IMG/VR virus record: IMGVR_UViG_3300048999_000133
Span: 1 to 41,199 of that record
DNA from: a virus
Strand: one strand, 5' to 3'
DNA length: 41,199 nt
The position numbers and the translations under genes were made by a program. The notes beneath the pieces are model-generated. The model did not search any database. It worked only from the letters and a program-made list of their open reading frames with translations, and had not been told where the DNA came from. This document shows positions 8,463-33,613 of this stretch, one piece after another (the first letter of the stretch is position 1; each line of letters starts with the position of its first letter).

Positions 8463-9269
8463 TCAGCCGACGCGGACAGCGTCGATCTGGGCGGAGACCG
8501 TGATCTTGCCCGATGCGTACGCCGAGCCGTCGGAGTTGTAGCCGAACCCGTACGCCGTGACGGTGGTGGTCTCGGTGACGGTGACGATCTTCGTAGTAGC
8601 GCCCATCAGCTCCCGGCCGACGGTGCCCGAGATGTCGTTGCCCATGATCGTGCCGGCATCGCCGGGGTAGCGGAGGGCCAGCTGCGGAAGCGTCTTCGGT
8701 GCGTCGGCCGCGGCAGCTTCAGTGCGGTTGAACACCGCGGTGGTGTTCACCAGCCAGGTGCCCGGCGTCAGCGAGAAGGTTCCGAGGGTGGTGGCGTTGG
8801 CTGCGAAGGGCCCGCCGATGTGCTCGACGGTGGTCTCAGCGATCGACTTACTGAGTCCCAGGCCACCCTTGACATCGGTTGCCGGGTCACCCGCAGGTCC
8901 CGTGTCGCCCTTCGGACCGGTGGCTCCGGTCTCGCCGACGGATCCTTGCGGTCCCACCGGTCCGGTGTCGCCTTTCGGCCCCTGTGCACCAGTGCCGACG
9001 GTGTTGAGCTTGGTCCGGACGGCCGGCGCCAGCTTGGCTTCGGTGACGATGCTGTCGTTCAGGGTGTTCTGCCAGACCGAGCCGTCGGCGTTGTGCGACA
9101 GCAGGTAGTCCCAGGTGCCGGTGTAGATGTCCTGCTGGCCCAGGGTGTTGTCGACGAAGCTCGAGCCACCGCGGTACGGACCGTCCCCGGGGTTCGCCGT
9201 GGCAGCAGAACCGCCACCCAGCAACACGACGCTGGCGACTGCCAGGATCGCGAGAATCTTGGTACGCAT
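8463..9269 (-). CDS. Secreted collagen-like protein
   Basis: A 268-residue protein. I chose ATG 9269 because it has a ggaggtatt ribosome site and opens a classic signal peptide: basic MRTK, a hydrophobic core (ILAILAVASVVLLGGG) and a likely cleavage after SAATA. Residues 95-130 or so carry Gly-X-Y repeats (GPKGDTGPVGPQG). The C-terminal 120 residues are Thr/Gly-rich beta-type sequence resembling the globular heads of bacterial collagen-like proteins. It is unusual for a phage early operon to encode an exported trimeric stalk protein; it would act outside the infected cell. Surface shielding or attachment are possible roles, not shown by the sequence. Confidence 0.8.
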   Translation of the reverse strand: MRTKILAILAVASVVLLGGGSAATANPGDGPYRGGSSFVDNTLGQQDIYTGTWDYLLSHNADGSVWQNTLNDSIVTEAKLAPAVRTKLNTVGTGAQGPKGDTGPVGPQGSVGETGATGPKGDTGPAGDPATDVKGGLGLSKSIAETTVEHIGGPFAANATTLGTFSLTPGTWLVNTTAVFNRTEAAAADAPKTLPQLALRYPGDAGTIMGNDISGTVGRELMGATTKIVTVTETTTVTAYGFGYNSDGSAYASGKITVSAQIDAVRVG

Positions 9270-9300
9270 TGAATACCTCCAGTTGAGGGCTGGTCTACCT

Positions 9301-9358
9301 GACCAACCGAAGCGGTACCGGCCCCGCATCCAGGTGTCCGGTACCGCTTCGGTGGGTC
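9301..9358 (-). terminator. Very strong stop-proximal hairpin without U-tract
   Basis: Arms ccgaagcggtaccgg (9307-9321) and ccggtaccgcttcgg (9338-9352) pair perfectly over 15 bp. Pairing continues outwards to 9301/9358 with one mismatch, giving about 20 of 21 pairs, and reaches the stop codon of the gene at 9357-9716. No T-run follows in the leftward direction. Confidence 0.65.
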
Positions 9359-11685: not shown

Positions 11686-11716
11686 GGGCAATAATCTCCT
11701 ATCGGTTCAGCACCGA

Positions 11717-15921: not shown

Positions 15922-17769
15922 CTATCCGTACAGGGCACCCCAGCGCAAGCCGAAGTCAGTTGCGTCAGCGATGATGTCCACTGGCCGGGTCGCTCCGGGC
16001 GGGCACCAGCTGAACGTCATGCACTCGATAGCGTGTTGGCGTACCTCGCGGGCGATCGATCGCGGAGCGGAGAACACCAGCTCATCGTGCACGAAAGCCT
16101 TGATCATCCGGACCACCGAGTCGTCCATCCGCAGGATCGCGTGGAACGCCAGGTCCCGGGCAGCGCCCTGGCCCATCAGCGCCGGTCCCTGGGTCCAGGC
16201 CCGGTCCCGGTTCGCCTTCATCAGGCGGCCGAAGCCGTTGTCGAGCATCCCGTAGCGCTCTGCCAGATCGGCTTGCTCACGCTTCCACTGGACCAGCCGC
16301 GGGTGATCCCGCTCCATTGACTGGATGAATTGCCGCGCGATGTCCGGCCCGGCAATCAGACCCAGCTTCCCCAGCCCCATGCCGTAGTTCCAGCCGTGGC
16401 CGATCGGCTTGGCCATCTCCCGGTGCTGCTTCGTTGCCTGTGGCCCCCACACCGTTCGAGCGTTTTCCATATGGAGGTCGCGACCATCCAGGAACTTGTC
16501 TAGGTAGTTGTAATCCTGGCTCAGCCCGGCGACCGACCGCGCATCGATCTGGGCGAAGTCGACCGAGAACAGGACATGGAAGTCGTCGTCTTCCTCCGGC
16601 AGCACGTCACCGGTGAACACCTCCCGCTCGTGATGCCGGCCGCCCCGCTTCCCGAACACCGTCAGTCCGGGGTTCTGGATCGATGTCCGGCCCGACGCCT
16701 GAAGGTAGTAGATATCGGGGTGACAGAACCCGTCGACGTGGCAGTTGTCCAACGCCGTCTGGTACACCGTGCGCAAGCCCTGGATCGAGCTCACTGCTTC
16801 CAGCACCGGCGTGGCCTGCGGGTACTTCTTTGCCAGCTCGAGCAGGCCTTCGCCGCCGAAGCTGGGCTGGCCCTTGTTCGTCTTCGGGACGTCCGCGTAG
16901 TCCACGCCGTAGTCGTACAGCGCCCGGAGAATGGCTTCCTTGCCGCCCTTGGTAGCGGTGGGCTTGGCGGCCGGCTGGCCCGCGGCGTTGGTGGTCGGCA
17001 GCCCGTACCGATCGATCAACATCTGGACTCGGTCTGCCTGAATCGCGTTGTTGTTGTCGATCCGGGCCTGGGTCAGTTGCTTGTCCAGACGGAACCCGTT
17101 CTGGCTGATCTGGCTGCACACCGCAGCCACGCGCATCTCCCGCCAGGCGTACTCCGTCACCTTGCCGTCGGTGGTGAACCGGCCCAGCAGCTCACCCAGT
17201 ACGGTGCGGTTGGCCAGTACGTCATGGGCCAGATAGTCGCGGTACTGCGGGTTGGTGGTGGGGATCGTGCCGAACTGGCAGCAGGCGTCAGGGTCGCCGT
17301 GTTCCTTGGCCAACTGCTTGAGATCGTGGCTCTTGCCCGGTACGCCGTACTGGTGCGCCAGGTTGTCGAGCGCGTAGTACTTCTTCAGGCGCTCCGGGGT
17401 GTCCGGGAATACCGTCACCCCGCCGGTGTTGACGTAGCTGACCGGCGCCGGGTCGAGCACGGTAGCCAGGGTCCAGGTGTCGATGATCTCCCGGGCGCGT
17501 GTCTTGGCCAGCAGGTCGAAGCCGCGGCTCAGCGCCGGGAAGTCGAAGGCCAAGACGTTGTGCCCGATCAGCAGTGACCGGTACTCGAGATCGGACATCA
17601 TCGCGTCGTACGAGTCGTGGAGCCGGGGCACGTCGCCGGCACCAAGGCCCAGCGTCGCACCGATCCGGTGAAAGTCGTCAGGCTTGTGCGCGTACATCTC
17701 GTTGACCGAATGGGTTTCGATGTCGAAAACCACCGGTGGGTACAGGATCGAGTCACGTGCGGCATTCAC
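15922..17769 (-). CDS. Family A DNA polymerase with 3'-5' exonuclease domain
   Basis: A 615-residue polymerase from GTG 17769, chosen because it overlaps the stop of the small gene before it (GTGA) and gives the usual phage PolA length. The exonuclease domain starts at DIET (16-19). Polymerase motif A is DFAQIDAR (404-411), motif B HREMAKPIGHGWNYG (449-463), motif C HDE (561-563). In motif A the usual Glu of SQIELR, the steric gate, is Asp409, and in motif B His458 stands where Phe or Tyr is usual. There is no 5'-3' nuclease domain. The same frame stays open to 18144, which would give a 740-residue protein. It is the replicative polymerase of the phage. Confidence 0.92.
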   Translation of the reverse strand: MNAARDSILYPPVVFDIETHSVNEMYAHKPDDFHRIGATLGLGAGDVPRLHDSYDAMMSDLEYRSLLIGHNVLAFDFPALSRGFDLLAKTRAREIIDTWTLATVLDPAPVSYVNTGGVTVFPDTPERLKKYYALDNLAHQYGVPGKSHDLKQLAKEHGDPDACCQFGTIPTTNPQYRDYLAHDVLANRTVLGELLGRFTTDGKVTEYAWREMRVAAVCSQISQNGFRLDKQLTQARIDNNNAIQADRVQMLIDRYGLPTTNAAGQPAAKPTATKGGKEAILRALYDYGVDYADVPKTNKGQPSFGGEGLLELAKKYPQATPVLEAVSSIQGLRTVYQTALDNCHVDGFCHPDIYYLQASGRTSIQNPGLTVFGKRGGRHHEREVFTGDVLPEEDDDFHVLFSVDFAQIDARSVAGLSQDYNYLDKFLDGRDLHMENARTVWGPQATKQHREMAKPIGHGWNYGMGLGKLGLIAGPDIARQFIQSMERDHPRLVQWKREQADLAERYGMLDNGFGRLMKANRDRAWTQGPALMGQGAARDLAFHAILRMDDSVVRMIKAFVHDELVFSAPRSIAREVRQHAIECMTFSWCPPGATRPVDIIADATDFGLRWGALYG

Positions 17770-17996
17770 CGGAACTGGTCCAGGTTGTGTCGGGGTGCGA
17801 ACTTCAGGTATGGAAGCAGCGGCTGGGGTACCTTCGTCCCGACGGCTCTGGCCCACTTCACTTCCAGATCGTACGCGTTGTGATTCGGCCACTCGCGGGA
17901 CATCTTCCACCCGCGTTCGAAGGCCTTCTTCATCGCGAGTTCGATCTCCTCCCGCGTCATGTCGGGCACTGGTTCCGTAGTACTCGGCTCGCTCAT
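17766..17996 (-). CDS. Small protein coupled to the DNA polymerase
   Basis: A 76-residue protein from ATG 17996 (a TTG at 18020 in the same frame is an alternative). It reads MSEPSTTEPVPDMTREEIEL, then a charged helix (AMKKAFERGWKMSREW) and a mixed C-terminus. Its stop overlaps the polymerase GTG. The amino acid mix is normal, whereas the competing frame over the same bases is Arg/Gly/Pro-rich, so I regard this frame as the real one. No family is recognised. Confidence 0.65.
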   Translation of the reverse strand: MSEPSTTEPVPDMTREEIELAMKKAFERGWKMSREWPNHNAYDLEVKWARAVGTKVPQPLLPYLKFAPRHNLDQFR

Positions 17997-18016
17997 CAGC
18001 CCACCTGTCTGTCGAA

Positions 18017-18144
18017 TCAAAGATCTTCCTTGCCGGACGCAAGCATTCCGCGTGGAGCCACTGGTCTTTCAGCTCGCCGGTTTCGTCGTACTTGGCGTTG
18101 GTGAACCCGCGCTTGGACCCGACACAATCGCAGTACGGTTTCAC
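18017..18144 (-). CDS. Small zinc-knuckle-like protein, 3' end disturbed
   Basis: GTG 18144 overlaps the preceding stop (GTGA) and encodes MKPYCDCVGSKRGFTNAKYD, then WLHAECLRPARK, with a C-x-C plus H-x2-C arrangement typical of tiny actinophage zinc proteins. In the sequence as given there is no stop in this frame, which continues into the polymerase. A single-base frame change just after RPARK would end the protein at TGA 18019-18017, exactly overlapping a TTG start of the next frame (TTGA). I annotate to that predicted stop. A real fusion to the polymerase is the alternative. Confidence 0.5.
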
Positions 18145-19794: not shown

Positions 19795-19922
19795 TTACCC
19801 TTCTTCGGCTTCGGGGGCTTGCGCCCGATCAACTTGCCGAGACCCAGGATGCGATCGTCGGCCTTCGGCTTCTTGGCGTTCTTGTCCAGGGCCTTGTCAT
19901 CTCCGTGCTTATCCTTTGCCAT
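19791..19922 (-). CDS. 43-residue lysine-rich protein, first gene of the leftward operon, leaderless
   Basis: ATG 19922 to TGA 19791. The product (MAKDKHGDDKALDKNAKKPK, then RKPPKPKKGK) is about one third lysine and could bind nucleic acid. No ribosome site precedes the ATG; a TAGATT -10 box lies exactly six bases upstream, so the transcript probably begins at the ATG. Its stop overlaps the next GTG. Confidence 0.65.
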   Translation of the reverse strand: MAKDKHGDDKALDKNAKKPKADDRILGLGKLIGRKPPKPKKGK

Positions 19923-19928
19923 GTGCAA

Positions 19929-19934
19929 AATCTA
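19929..19934 (-). promoter_or_regulatory. Main leftward promoter, leaderless type
   Basis: The leftward sequence is CGATGTTAGATTTTGCACATG. TAGATT fits TANNNT and stands six bases (TTGCAC) before the ATG at 19922. It is the first promoter of the leftward operon and lies in the divergent gap with the rightward genes. The core GATGTTAGA recurs at three other places. Confidence 0.65.
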
Positions 19935-19944
19935 ACATCGTTGC

Positions 19945-19950
19945 TAGTGT
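19945..19950 (+). promoter_or_regulatory. Possible rightward promoter of the divergent pair
   Basis: TAGTGT (a TANNNT box) lies 33 bases before the first rightward ATG at 19983, leaving a short leader with the sequence cctacgctggggag. No -35 element is clear. The gap of 60 bases between the divergent starts must hold both promoters and any operator. Confidence 0.4.
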
Positions 19951-19982
19951 GAAACAACCAACACCTACGCTGGGGAGTTGAA

Positions 19983-20744: not shown

Positions 20745-20786
20745 GTGAACGATATCAGTTCTGCAACCCCTCTGGACAGCCTGTGA
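20745..20786 (+). CDS. 13-residue leader peptide coupled to the primase
   Basis: GTG 20745 lies behind the full recurrent leader cctacgctggaggcgactac and opens a 13-codon frame (MNDISSATPLDSL) whose TGA overlaps the primase GTG as GTGA. The primase itself has no ribosome site of its own, so ribosomes would reach it by finishing this peptide. This looks like a translational-coupling leader rather than a functional protein. Confidence 0.55.
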   Translation: MNDISSATPLDSL

Positions 20787-22957
20787 CTCTGGGGCCCGCG
20801 CACGTCGCGGAACTCCAGGCATCCACGATCGACCCGGCGGTAGCAGCCGAACGCGGATACCTCACCATCACCGAGGACATGCGCGACACTCTCACCCGTT
20901 CTAGGGTGCCCGGCTACGCGACCGATCCACCGACGTCGTACCCGGGGTTGCTGATCCCGATGTATCCGCCCGGCGGTGGTGACGCGCTCAGCTTCCAGTT
21001 CAAGCCGGCCGAACCGGTGCCGCATCCGTCGACCGGCAAGCCGCTGAAGTACGTCTCCCGCCGCGGTACGCCGAACATGCTGGACGTACACCCCCGCAAC
21101 GCCGCCGCGGTACGGGACGTGACCGTACCTCTGTGGATCACTGAAGGGGTGAAGAAGGCCGACGCGCTGACGTCGCGGGGGCGGTGCGTGGTCGCGCTGA
21201 CCGGGGTCTACAACTTCCGGTCCAAGACCGGGACGCTGGGGGACTGGGAGGATGTCCCGCTCCGGGGCCGGACGGTGGTGATCTGCTACGACTCCGACGC
21301 CAGATCTAACGACTCTGTGCTCACCGCGATGCGGCGGATCGGCACCTGGCTGAAGTCGAAGGGGGCCGCGGCGGTCTGGTACATCGTCGTTCCGCCGACC
21401 TGCCACGGGGCGGCGGTCAAGGGGGCCGACGACTGGTTCGCGGCCGGCGGGACGATCGAAGAGCTCGAGAGTGTGGCCACCGACTACGTACCGAACTCCG
21501 GCACGGTCCAGGACCCCACCTTCACCGACGCCTACCTGGCCGCCACGGTGGCCGACGACGCGCTGGGCGACCAGTTCCTGTACTCACCCGGGCTCGGTGG
21601 CTGGCAGACCTGGGACGGGCGGCGGTGGGCCCGGTGCGGGACGGAGACCGTGATCGAGTCGGTGCGCGAGTACGCCGTACGCCGGTATCAGGACGCGGTG
21701 GCTGAGTTCGCCAAGGAACCGAACCAGAACCGGGTCAAGCGGGCGCTGGATGGGTGGCGGACCGTGCTGACTCGGGCCAAGCTGACGTCGCTGGAGTTCT
21801 TGTGCCGCGGTATCTGTTTGGTGGACGCCGAGGAGTTCGACTCCCACAACGACCTGCTCAACGTCGGTAACGGGGTGGTGGACCTGACCACTGGGACGCT
21901 CCTGCCCCACGATCCGGAGCTCCACATGACCAAGCTGGCGCCGGCCAAGTACGTACCGGGCGCTGACCATCGCGACTGGAAGGCGTCGCTGGAGTCACTG
22001 CCGCCGGAGACTCACGACTGGTGGCAGCTGCGGCTGGGCCAGGCGGCCACCGGCTACATGACGCCCGATGACAAACTGGTGCTGGTCACCGGCGGCGGGG
22101 AGAACGGCAAGAGCTCCATGATGGACGCGGTCGGCCGGGCGCTGGGTGACTACTACGTCCAGGTCTCCCACCGCGCGCTGCTGTCCAGCAACGACGCACA
22201 CCCGACCGAGCTGATGGATTTCAAAGGGGCCCGGCTCGCGCTGATCGAAGAGACCCCCGAAGAGCGCCGGCTGAACGCCACGCGACTGAAACAAACCGTC
22301 GGTACGCCGAGGATCAAAGCGCGGTACATGCGCGCCGACTCCGCCACGTTCGACGCGACCCACAGCCTGTTCCTGTCCACACAGTTTCCCCCAACTGTGG
22401 ACGAGACCGATCACGGCACCTGGCGCCGTCTGGTCAGGATCGATTTCCCCTACACCTGGCTGCTGCCGGGCAAGCCGTCGAAGCCGAACTGGATCGTGCG
22501 GCCCGCGGACCCCGGACTCAGGCAGCGGATGAAGGAAGGCCTGGACGGGCAGCACGAAGCCATCCTGGCCTGGCTGGTGGCCGGCGCCCGTGAGTGGTAC
22601 CAGCGGGACCGCGTCATGCCACCCGAGCCGGGGCCGGTCGACGCGGCGACGGCGGAGTGGCGGGGCAAGTCGGACACCCTGGGCGAATACGTGGCCGACC
22701 GGCTCGAGTACGACCAAGGCAGCTGGATCACCAGCGTGGATCTGCTGACCGATCTGAACTACTGGCTGAAGGACCACGGGCAGGCTCCGTGGTCGGACCG
22801 GTTGCTGGCCACCAGGATGCCGGATGTTCACTCTCTGTCGATGAAAAAGATAGCGATCCGGAGCGATCTACCGGGCCGGTCGACCAGGTTGGGTGGTGGT
22901 GGCATGCTCTCGGGAGTCAAGGTTAAGGCGTGGGTCGCGGTTCGATTCCGTTCCTAA
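20783..22957 (+). CDS. D5/P4-type primase-helicase
   Basis: A 724-residue protein from GTG 20783. The N-terminal 240 residues carry a Toprim-like primase-associated domain (DUF3854 type): LWITEGVKKADAL with Glu121 and VVICYDSDA with Asp170 and Asp172. A D5_N-like region follows (YSPGLGGWQTWDGRRW near 267-282). The SF3 helicase core has Walker A GGGENGKSS (437-445), LALIEE as the B site (about 485-490) and FLSTQFPP as sensor (about 529). It primes and unwinds DNA for replication with the PolA on the other operon. The end beyond about residue 700 is less conserved in form. Confidence 0.88.
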   Translation: MTLGPAHVAELQASTIDPAVAAERGYLTITEDMRDTLTRSRVPGYATDPPTSYPGLLIPMYPPGGGDALSFQFKPAEPVPHPSTGKPLKYVSRRGTPNMLDVHPRNAAAVRDVTVPLWITEGVKKADALTSRGRCVVALTGVYNFRSKTGTLGDWEDVPLRGRTVVICYDSDARSNDSVLTAMRRIGTWLKSKGAAAVWYIVVPPTCHGAAVKGADDWFAAGGTIEELESVATDYVPNSGTVQDPTFTDAYLAATVADDALGDQFLYSPGLGGWQTWDGRRWARCGTETVIESVREYAVRRYQDAVAEFAKEPNQNRVKRALDGWRTVLTRAKLTSLEFLCRGICLVDAEEFDSHNDLLNVGNGVVDLTTGTLLPHDPELHMTKLAPAKYVPGADHRDWKASLESLPPETHDWWQLRLGQAATGYMTPDDKLVLVTGGGENGKSSMMDAVGRALGDYYVQVSHRALLSSNDAHPTELMDFKGARLALIEETPEERRLNATRLKQTVGTPRIKARYMRADSATFDATHSLFLSTQFPPTVDETDHGTWRRLVRIDFPYTWLLPGKPSKPNWIVRPADPGLRQRMKEGLDGQHEAILAWLVAGAREWYQRDRVMPPEPGPVDAATAEWRGKSDTLGEYVADRLEYDQGSWITSVDLLTDLNYWLKDHGQAPWSDRLLATRMPDVHSLSMKKIAIRSDLPGRSTRLGGGGMLSGVKVKAWVAVRFRS

Positions 22958-23093
22958 CTCACTAGTAGCTAAATTCGCTGAGCGTGGAACCGATAGAACC
23001 GAGGCGTCCCATCCCCCACAGGTTGGAAATCCTCACGTAGAGGGGATGCTGGGCATCGGTTCTATCGGTTCCGGTATTGAAAGGATCTTTCAT
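22958..23093. other. Non-coding gap holding a strong inverted repeat
   Basis: No reading frame of any promise fills these 136 bases between the primase and the next gene. They contain the inverted repeat at 22986-23072 and are more A/T-rich on the left (actagtagctaaattcgc). The last 20 bases hold the ribosome site of the gene at 23094. Confidence 0.7.
22986..23072. repeat. 17-bp perfect inverted repeat made of GAACCGA units
   Basis: Left arm GGAACCGATAGAACCGA (22986-23002), right arm TCGGTTCTATCGGTTCC (23056-23072), an exact inverse match. Each arm holds two direct copies of GAACCGA nine bases apart. Inside, atcccc (23011-23016) pairs with ggggat (23042-23047) and ccc with ggg, so the whole can extend to a long hairpin of 87 bases. 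A replication origin with iterons, an operator cluster, a structured RNA or a miniature element would all fit. Confidence 0.85.
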
Positions 23094-23345
23094 ATGTCTA
23101 CCCACAGTCACCCCGACGGACAGCCACTCCGATCGACCGACGATTACGATCTGGGACGACCCTGCCCGGCGTGCGGGGCTGTGGCGGGTGTTGCGTGCGT
23201 CGTCTCAGGTCACCCGACGCGGAGAGCCCACAGCGCCCGAGTGAGCGCCGGAGACCGGCACTGGAAACGCGACACCAAGAACGCACCGTGGCGCGAAGAC
23301 CGGGTGCCTGGAGCCTGTTACAGCACGCTTCCAGGGTGCGAATAA
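23094..23345 (+). CDS. Small zinc-binding protein
   Basis: An 83-residue protein; ATG 23094 follows gaaaggatctttcat. The core RPCPACGAVAGVACVVSGH with RRAHSARV matches the short actinobacterial and phage zinc-binding domain of the form CPxCGA-x2-G-x2-C ... R-x2-H-x2-R. Such proteins are common beside phage replication genes; their role is not known. It ends at a TAA that begins the 16-bp motif at 23343. Confidence 0.75.
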   Translation: MSTHSHPDGQPLRSTDDYDLGRPCPACGAVAGVACVVSGHPTRRAHSARVSAGDRHWKRDTKNAPWREDRVPGACYSTLPGCE

Positions 23346-32659: not shown

Positions 32660-33613
32660 ATGGCAACTCGCCAGATCAATGCCACCGACGCGGCAGCCTT
32701 GCTGCGCCGGCAGGACATCAAAGAGATCATTCAGATGGCGCCGAAGTCGAGCGCCGCGCTGAGCACGTTCCGCACGCTGCGGCTGTCGGCCAAGTCGGCA
32801 ACCATGCCGGTGCTGGCCGCGCTGCCGACGGCCGGCTGGGTCGGGGTCACCCCGGACCCGATCTCCGGTTCGACCGGTGTCAAGCCGCTGAGCAACGTCG
32901 CCTGGGCGTCGAAGACGATCACCGCCGAGGAGATCGCAGTTATCGTTCCGGTCCACGAGGACCTGTTCGACGACACCGAGTTCAACATCTGGGAAGAGGT
33001 CAAGCCCCTGGTTGCCCAGGAGTTCGGCCGCATCCTGGACCTGGCGGTGTTCTTCGGCACCAACGCGCCGGCCACCTTCGACGACTCGCTGGTGGAAGGC
33101 GCCCGGGCCGCGGGCAACGTGGTCTCGCCCGGCACCATCGACCTGGCCGAAGACGTCAACCAGGTGATGAGCCTGGTGGAAGCCGACGGCTTCGACGTCA
33201 ACCAGTTCTACGCCAAGCGCACCCTGCGGGGCCGCCTTCGCGGGCTGCGGGACGACGTCGGCCAGCCGATCTACCTGAACTCCATCCGGAGCGACGGTCA
33301 GGTCAACACGCTGTACGGCGAAGACCTGGCCTGGGTCACGAACGGCGGCTGGGTCGCGGGGTCCGGTACCGAGCCGTCCGCGACCGGTGCCACGCTGATC
33401 GGTGGCGACCGCGACATGGCCATCCTCGGCATCCGCCAGGACATGCAGGTCAAGGTTCTGGACCAGGCCACGGTCGGCACCTACAACCTGGCGGAACGGG
33501 ACATGATCGCGCTGCGATTCAAGTTCCGCGTCGGCTTCGCCGTCGCCAACCCGCTCACTCCCGAGGCCAGCGGCGGTTACCCGTTCGCCATCCTGGGCCA
33601 GCCGTCCGCCTGA
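32660..33613 (+). CDS. Major capsid protein (HK97 fold)
   Basis: A 317-residue protein from ATG 32660 (cagagaggcagccagtc upstream). It has the HK97-type order: an N-terminal arm with DIKEIIQMAPKSSAALSTFR, an E-loop (SKTITAEEIAVIVPVHEDLF), the spine-helix region (IWEEVKPLVAQEFGRILDLA with the following GTNAPATF), and strands of the P and A domains ending ERDMIALRFKFRVGFAVANP. No N-terminal delta domain is seen, in agreement with the separate scaffold. A strong hairpin follows the stop. Confidence 0.92.
   Translation: MATRQINATDAAALLRRQDIKEIIQMAPKSSAALSTFRTLRLSAKSATMPVLAALPTAGWVGVTPDPISGSTGVKPLSNVAWASKTITAEEIAVIVPVHEDLFDDTEFNIWEEVKPLVAQEFGRILDLAVFFGTNAPATFDDSLVEGARAAGNVVSPGTIDLAEDVNQVMSLVEADGFDVNQFYAKRTLRGRLRGLRDDVGQPIYLNSIRSDGQVNTLYGEDLAWVTNGGWVAGSGTEPSATGATLIGGDRDMAILGIRQDMQVKVLDQATVGTYNLAERDMIALRFKFRVGFAVANPLTPEASGGYPFAILGQPSA

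Follow-up and report, generated by a model that had tools for sequence, protein, structure and literature searches.

The stem-loop downstream of orf904 in the archaeal plasmid pRN1 is essential and movable in the plasmid, and a mutation in its stem is rescued by restoring symmetry; in the available text of the report, the authors call the motif bound at the stem-loop not yet identified and name Bordetella phage BIP-1 as a phage parallel (PMC4234260). Inspection of the sequence itself revealed that each pRN1 arm carries TGTCCA twice at a 9-bp pitch, with the 21-bp arms 58 bp apart, a repeat of which no mention was found in the available text (PMC4234260). In Streptococcus thermophilus phage Sfi21, the feature annotated in GenBank as "origin of replication" lies directly after a Pox_D5/DUF5906 primase gene and holds CTTTAGTTACTTAGTTAC, inverted and 71 bp apart. 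The crr ("cis required region for replication") of P4, with its annotated type 1 repeats, is found directly after the alpha primase gene. D5-type helicases of SaPI and SCCmec elements are reported to use iterons directly downstream of their own gene; SaPI Rep reportedly does so via its C-terminal domain, and binding by SCCmec Cch2 needs direct repeats, not inverted repeats (PMC7581432).

The DNA analyzed here (the window), a phage contig of 41,199 bp, has a GC content of 65% and a 127-bp terminal repeat. A dyad of 87 bp occupies the 136-bp gap between its primase-helicase gene (20783 to 22957, plus strand) and the next gene (23094 to 23345, plus strand), beginning 28 bp past the primase-helicase stop and ending 21 bp before the likely next start. 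The sequence-only reading had described perfect 17-bp arms 53 bp apart, with two GAACCGA units per arm in two orientations and further pairing inside, and all of this was confirmed, the arms exactly as claimed. The left arm, GGAACCGATAGAACCGA (22986 to 23002, plus strand), holds units at 22987 to 22993 and, 9 bp on, at 22996 to 23002; the right arm (23056 to 23072, minus strand) is its exact inverse, with units at 23056 to 23062 and 23065 to 23071. The 53-bp centre (23003 to 23055, no strand assigned) includes the shorter inner pairing CATCCCC/GGGGATG as well as the central motif CTCACGTAG (23032 to 23040, plus strand), 7 bp to the right of the dyad centre; at a GC content of 0.62 versus 0.65 in its surroundings, it is only slightly AT-richer. 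These arms form the longest perfect inverted repeat of the window when spacings up to 120 bp are considered, the runner-up having 16-bp arms. That second repeat (9306 to 9321 and 9338 to 9353, 16 bp apart) sits at the beginning of an ORF on the minus strand (8463 to 9329). By itself, GAACCGA is not enriched in the window (11 observed, 7.9 expected), unlike its arrangement in a set of four. Furthermore, no second pair of GAACCGA-like units (at most 1 mismatch each) was found anywhere in it, and the dyad is the only one present.

Two other parts of the earlier description held only in part. The repeat had been called non-coding; the next gene more likely starts at the ATG at 23094, which AAAGGA precedes, and the dyad is probably intergenic, yet a plus-strand frame stays open from a GTG at 22893 across the repeat to 23345. 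The further match to GAACCGATAG at 11699 to 11708 exists but amounts to a single unit that overlaps AGGAG, the Shine-Dalgarno-like sequence of a gene on the minus strand, and we take it as chance. At the end of the primase gene, GGTTCGATTCC (22939 to 22949) resembles a tRNA T-arm; ARAGORN called no tRNA. The predicted fold of the repeat is strong (about -50 kcal/mol), as would suit an RNA element of the primase transcript acting as a regulatory hairpin, attenuator, or terminator. Such an element is nevertheless highly improbable: the best Rfam match was at chance level and below threshold (22.8 bits versus the 100 required), no terminator was called at the site, direct repeats within the arms are unnecessary for an RNA, and the pRN1 counterpart still functions after relocation within its plasmid, according to the available text (PMC4234260).

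The gene upstream encodes a 724-aa primase-helicase with a DUF3854 primase-like region, D5_N, and DUF5906 (SF3-type helicase), as assigned by Pfam and PHROG matches; Pfam gave no Pox_D5 match in this protein. Its AlphaFold model (mean pLDDT of 79, 12 sequences) matches the hexameric ASFV PrimPol and mpox E5. Predicted secondary structure suggests a C-terminal winged-helix-like domain (residues about 632 to 722, encoded at 22676 to 22948, plus strand), the proposed reader of the site, and the end of the model runs helix-helix-strand-strand (H651-664, H672-683, E686-691, E713-722); an HMM match for this segment was not obtained. This domain may bind the units, in part by analogy with SaPI Rep, which is reported to use its C-terminal domain (PMC7581432). 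The DNA polymerase of the window is a separate gene (15922 to 18144, minus strand), and the gene to the right of the dyad, encoding a small zinc-binding phage protein of 83 aa (Pfam Phage_zn_bind_8), is probably a neighbour and not part of the site.

With a D5_N/SF3-type gene upstream, a long inverted repeat just after it whose spacer falls in the range of roughly 50 to 70 bp, and two direct units per arm at a pitch of 8 to 9 bp, the window site would belong, as judged from its anatomy, with the primase-adjacent iteron-dyad replication sites of the pRN1 and Sfi21 kind, an already known type. Like it, the pRN1 site immediately follows the gene of a P4-family primase-helicase that has a winged helix, and it has two units per arm at a 9-bp pitch, and in the pRN1 family, as here, sequence diverges while form is kept. 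Unlike it, pRN1 is an archaeal (Sulfolobus) plasmid with an AEP-type prim-pol and the unit TGTCCA, and its site is AT-rich and, in the available text, published as a stem-loop. The Sfi21 origin, also known as a phage-inhibitory sequence, shares the two inverted units per arm after the primase gene but differs in its 8-bp pitch, its 71 bp between arms, its AT-rich centre, and its separate prim-pol gene. The likeness of P4 crr is approximate: its repeats fall at a 9-bp pitch and have inverted partners, but these are imperfect and irregularly spaced, the crr block occurs in two copies, and the annotated origin is elsewhere. For the SaPI Rep and SCCmec Cch2 origins, the likeness (a D5-type helicase with iterons just downstream) is by description only (PMC7581432). 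Five mycobacteriophages of cluster K and related groups (Nergal, Kashi_VT1, Milly, Biglebops, and Mitti) have a four-unit dyad 67 to 228 bp after the primase/helicase gene, but with about 95 bp between unit pairs and with extra copies. Their dyads are distinct from the ESAS repeats of cluster K, whose spacers are mostly 4 to 13 bp, and no origin description was found in the available text of the cluster K paper (PMC3203893).

Relatives were gathered in searches with the primase-helicase of the window, which returned 27 and later 54 viral loci as well as 27 genome loci, these sets overlapping, and the stretch from -150 to +600 bp around the end of each primase gene was searched for dyads. A four-unit dyad was found near the primase gene end in 43 of 49 loci (window included); the same pattern occurred in 0.4% of dinucleotide-shuffled 750-bp windows. 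Among the six misses, L002, L018, and L062 have versions with unequal units, and L076, L078, and L081 have none. The outer span was 82 to 88 bp, mostly 83 bp, in all 42 loci measured with exact cores, and the pitch was 9 bp in all 42, a value that the exact-core search itself required; when pitches of 8 to 12 bp were allowed, nearly all best matches again fell at 9 bp. The words filling this frame vary widely across loci (GTACC, GTTAC, GTTCC, GTAAC, ATTAC, GTGCA, GTGTG, GTGAC, GTGCC, GGGAG, GGACA, and GAACC). The check for arm conservation and co-variation proposed with the sequence-only reading was therefore positive: relatives keep the dyad, and both arms change in step. Six exact-arm matches in viral contigs were set aside as chance and not true relatives of the site, because the sole inverted repeat there with arms of at least 12 bp is unrelated (L032). 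Two of the viral contigs share their lengths and matches with Streptomyces africanus and Streptomyces sp. NRRL S-455 contigs (L019/L106, 92,743 bp; L077/L107, 95,726 bp), and these phages or phage-like elements therefore live in Streptomyces.

Among 45 loci, 29 have a primase ORF that continues through the dyad into a long extension. Pfam confirmed a fusion of primase-helicase and family A DNA polymerase in L005:6001-10125, where one 1374-aa ORF carries DUF3854, D5_N, DUF5906, and DNA_pol_A; in about 28 other loci, the fusion is apparent. The dyad of these relatives sits in the stretch coding for the linker between primase-helicase and DNA polymerase A, and an identical unit (GTTAC, ATTAC, or GTTCC) falls in different reading frames in different fused loci, which points to selection on the DNA and not on the protein. 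Apparently fused primase-polymerase ORFs with no recognisable dyad in the linker were seen in L076, L078, and L081.

The mid-ORF location also bears on whether the dyad serves a phage repressor or other regulator as an operator controlling the genes to the right. Symmetrical repeats in a 136-bp gap before the next gene would suit a dimeric regulator, but besides the fused relatives, two findings make this reading very unlikely: a scan for sigma-70-like promoters detected none at the site, and no regulator gene is common to the loci, only the primase-helicase. Of the proteins encoded in the window, the primase-helicase alone had relatives in almost every compared locus (30 of 31); next came a ResIII helicase (17 of 31) and PolA (11 of 31), in a ranking that leaves aside ORFs opposite the primase gene strand. 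Of the two alternatives that the sequence-only reading had named beside an origin, a repressor operator and a structured RNA, both are thus retained only as much less likely. When protein columns were compared with unit positions by mutual information, C-terminal columns (about residues 692 to 694) ranked among the best, with unit position 4 pairing Y with A and K/R with C; this co-variation is only suggestive, shared ancestry dominates it, and it is not counted as evidence.

Across relatives, the dyad centre is AT-richer (mean GC of 0.51, versus 0.57 in 100-bp flanks [p = 3e-4] and 0.68 over the whole locus). A motif near CTCGCATAG (at most 2 mismatches) was present in 22 of 34 dereplicated centres, as opposed to at most 12 in 40 shuffles, although part of this enrichment may be shared ancestry; the motif is asymmetric and occurs in either orientation, and its offset from the dyad centre is typically about +6, or about -6 when mirrored. 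At positions between the units, the two arms of a dyad agree at 85 to 95%, versus 37 to 44% between phages, whereas corresponding stretches within one arm agree at 66%; whole-arm symmetry is therefore kept as well as the repeat. This pattern is what would be expected if a hairpin or cruciform were read chiefly by its shape, the reading proposed for pRN1, and the repeated units were incidental. The rescue of a pRN1 mutant by stem symmetry points the same way (available text of PMC4234260), as a pure iteron model would not require it, and this counts against iterons alone. Nonetheless, a direct repeat at a constant 9-bp pitch stands in both arms of all measured loci, for which a stem alone has no need, and we consider reading chiefly by shape rather unlikely. 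Hairpin and iteron roles are inseparable on the present comparison, so both models remain, with the pRN1 rescue, by analogy, favouring some role for symmetry.

Several observations complicate the assignment of a start point. Fourfold-site GC skew fell across the dyad in the 27 fused loci (mean of +0.065 to -0.045), which is contrary in sign to what a simple bidirectional origin would give and is confounded, since two different genes are compared; in the window, the cumulative skew minimum near 20 to 21 kb tracks gene direction. The skew check suggested for an origin thus lent no support to a bidirectional one. An adjacent dyad was absent at the D5 primases of LuckyBarnes, OscarSo, Wyvern, Lilbooboo, Reedo, Elva, Percival, and Javan107, and for LuckyBarnes no dyad was seen in the stretches searched. 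Eight of the contigs examined whole (about 61 to 98 kb; G001, G005, G006, G008, G009, G010, G012, and G013) have two dyads 42 to 49 kb apart, the second carrying an identical or almost identical unit and, in all three cases inspected (L133 to L135), not beside a primase. Curtobacterium phage Kalimba (L137) has two AGTGAC dyads of the same geometry in intergenic gaps (19871 to 19975 and 32912 to 33016), neither adjoining its primase and one adjoining a serine integrase gene. Two dyads per contig suggest that dyads and start points may not correspond one to one. The double dyads of the large relatives and Kalimba, together with P4, where crr lies right after the primase gene and the annotated origin elsewhere, would agree with an accessory cis-required site that the primase-helicase binds and at which synthesis does not start. 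Against this stand the single dyad of the window and the position of the Sfi21 and pRN1 dyads at annotated or essential origins, and we judge an accessory role of this kind to be improbable. The Kalimba integrase gene might also suggest a site of attachment or recombination. The present record yielded neither a tyrosine nor a serine recombinase, integration here would split the replication gene of the fused relatives, and this reading is exceedingly improbable.

Replication origin, as the sequence-only reading had suggested, remains the best-supported interpretation, given arms conserved as a dyad and the anatomy of Sfi21, P4 crr, and pRN1. From sequence comparison and analogy, we consider it quite probable that the dyad is a cis replication site, the origin or an essential part of it, whose units are bound by the phage's own D5/P4-family primase-helicase. 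In the mechanism we envision, the four units at a 9-bp pitch, two per arm in opposite orientation, would be the binding sites, and the C-terminal winged helix would bind them. The symmetry would set two hexameric rings face to face around the centre of roughly 55 bp, which would then be unwound at the expense of ATP, perhaps aided by cruciform formation, and the exposed single strand would be taken up by the primase and then by the phage DNA polymerase. Binding, melting, priming, and initiation at the site are all inferred.

A broader proposition, to which we give about an even chance, is that one origin design (four units at a pitch of about 9 bp, a dyad of near-fixed span, and the winged helix of D5-family primase-helicases as its reader) is common to actinobacterial phages, a streptococcal phage, and an archaeal plasmid, that the word changes along with the protein of each lineage, and that one lineage incorporated the origin into the gene for a primase-helicase-polymerase fusion. 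The fused relatives would then represent an origin surviving within a coding region; phage lambda, whose origin lies inside gene O, is comparable to the dyad in the fused ORFs. To our knowledge, origins have not been mapped in most tailed phages that encode D5-family primase-helicases. If the proposed reading is true, such origins would be findable from sequence alone, by geometry; the motif of the pRN1 stem-loop would gain a testable candidate, TGTCCA at a 9-bp pitch; and changing words on a fixed frame would make the co-evolution of protein and site directly testable.
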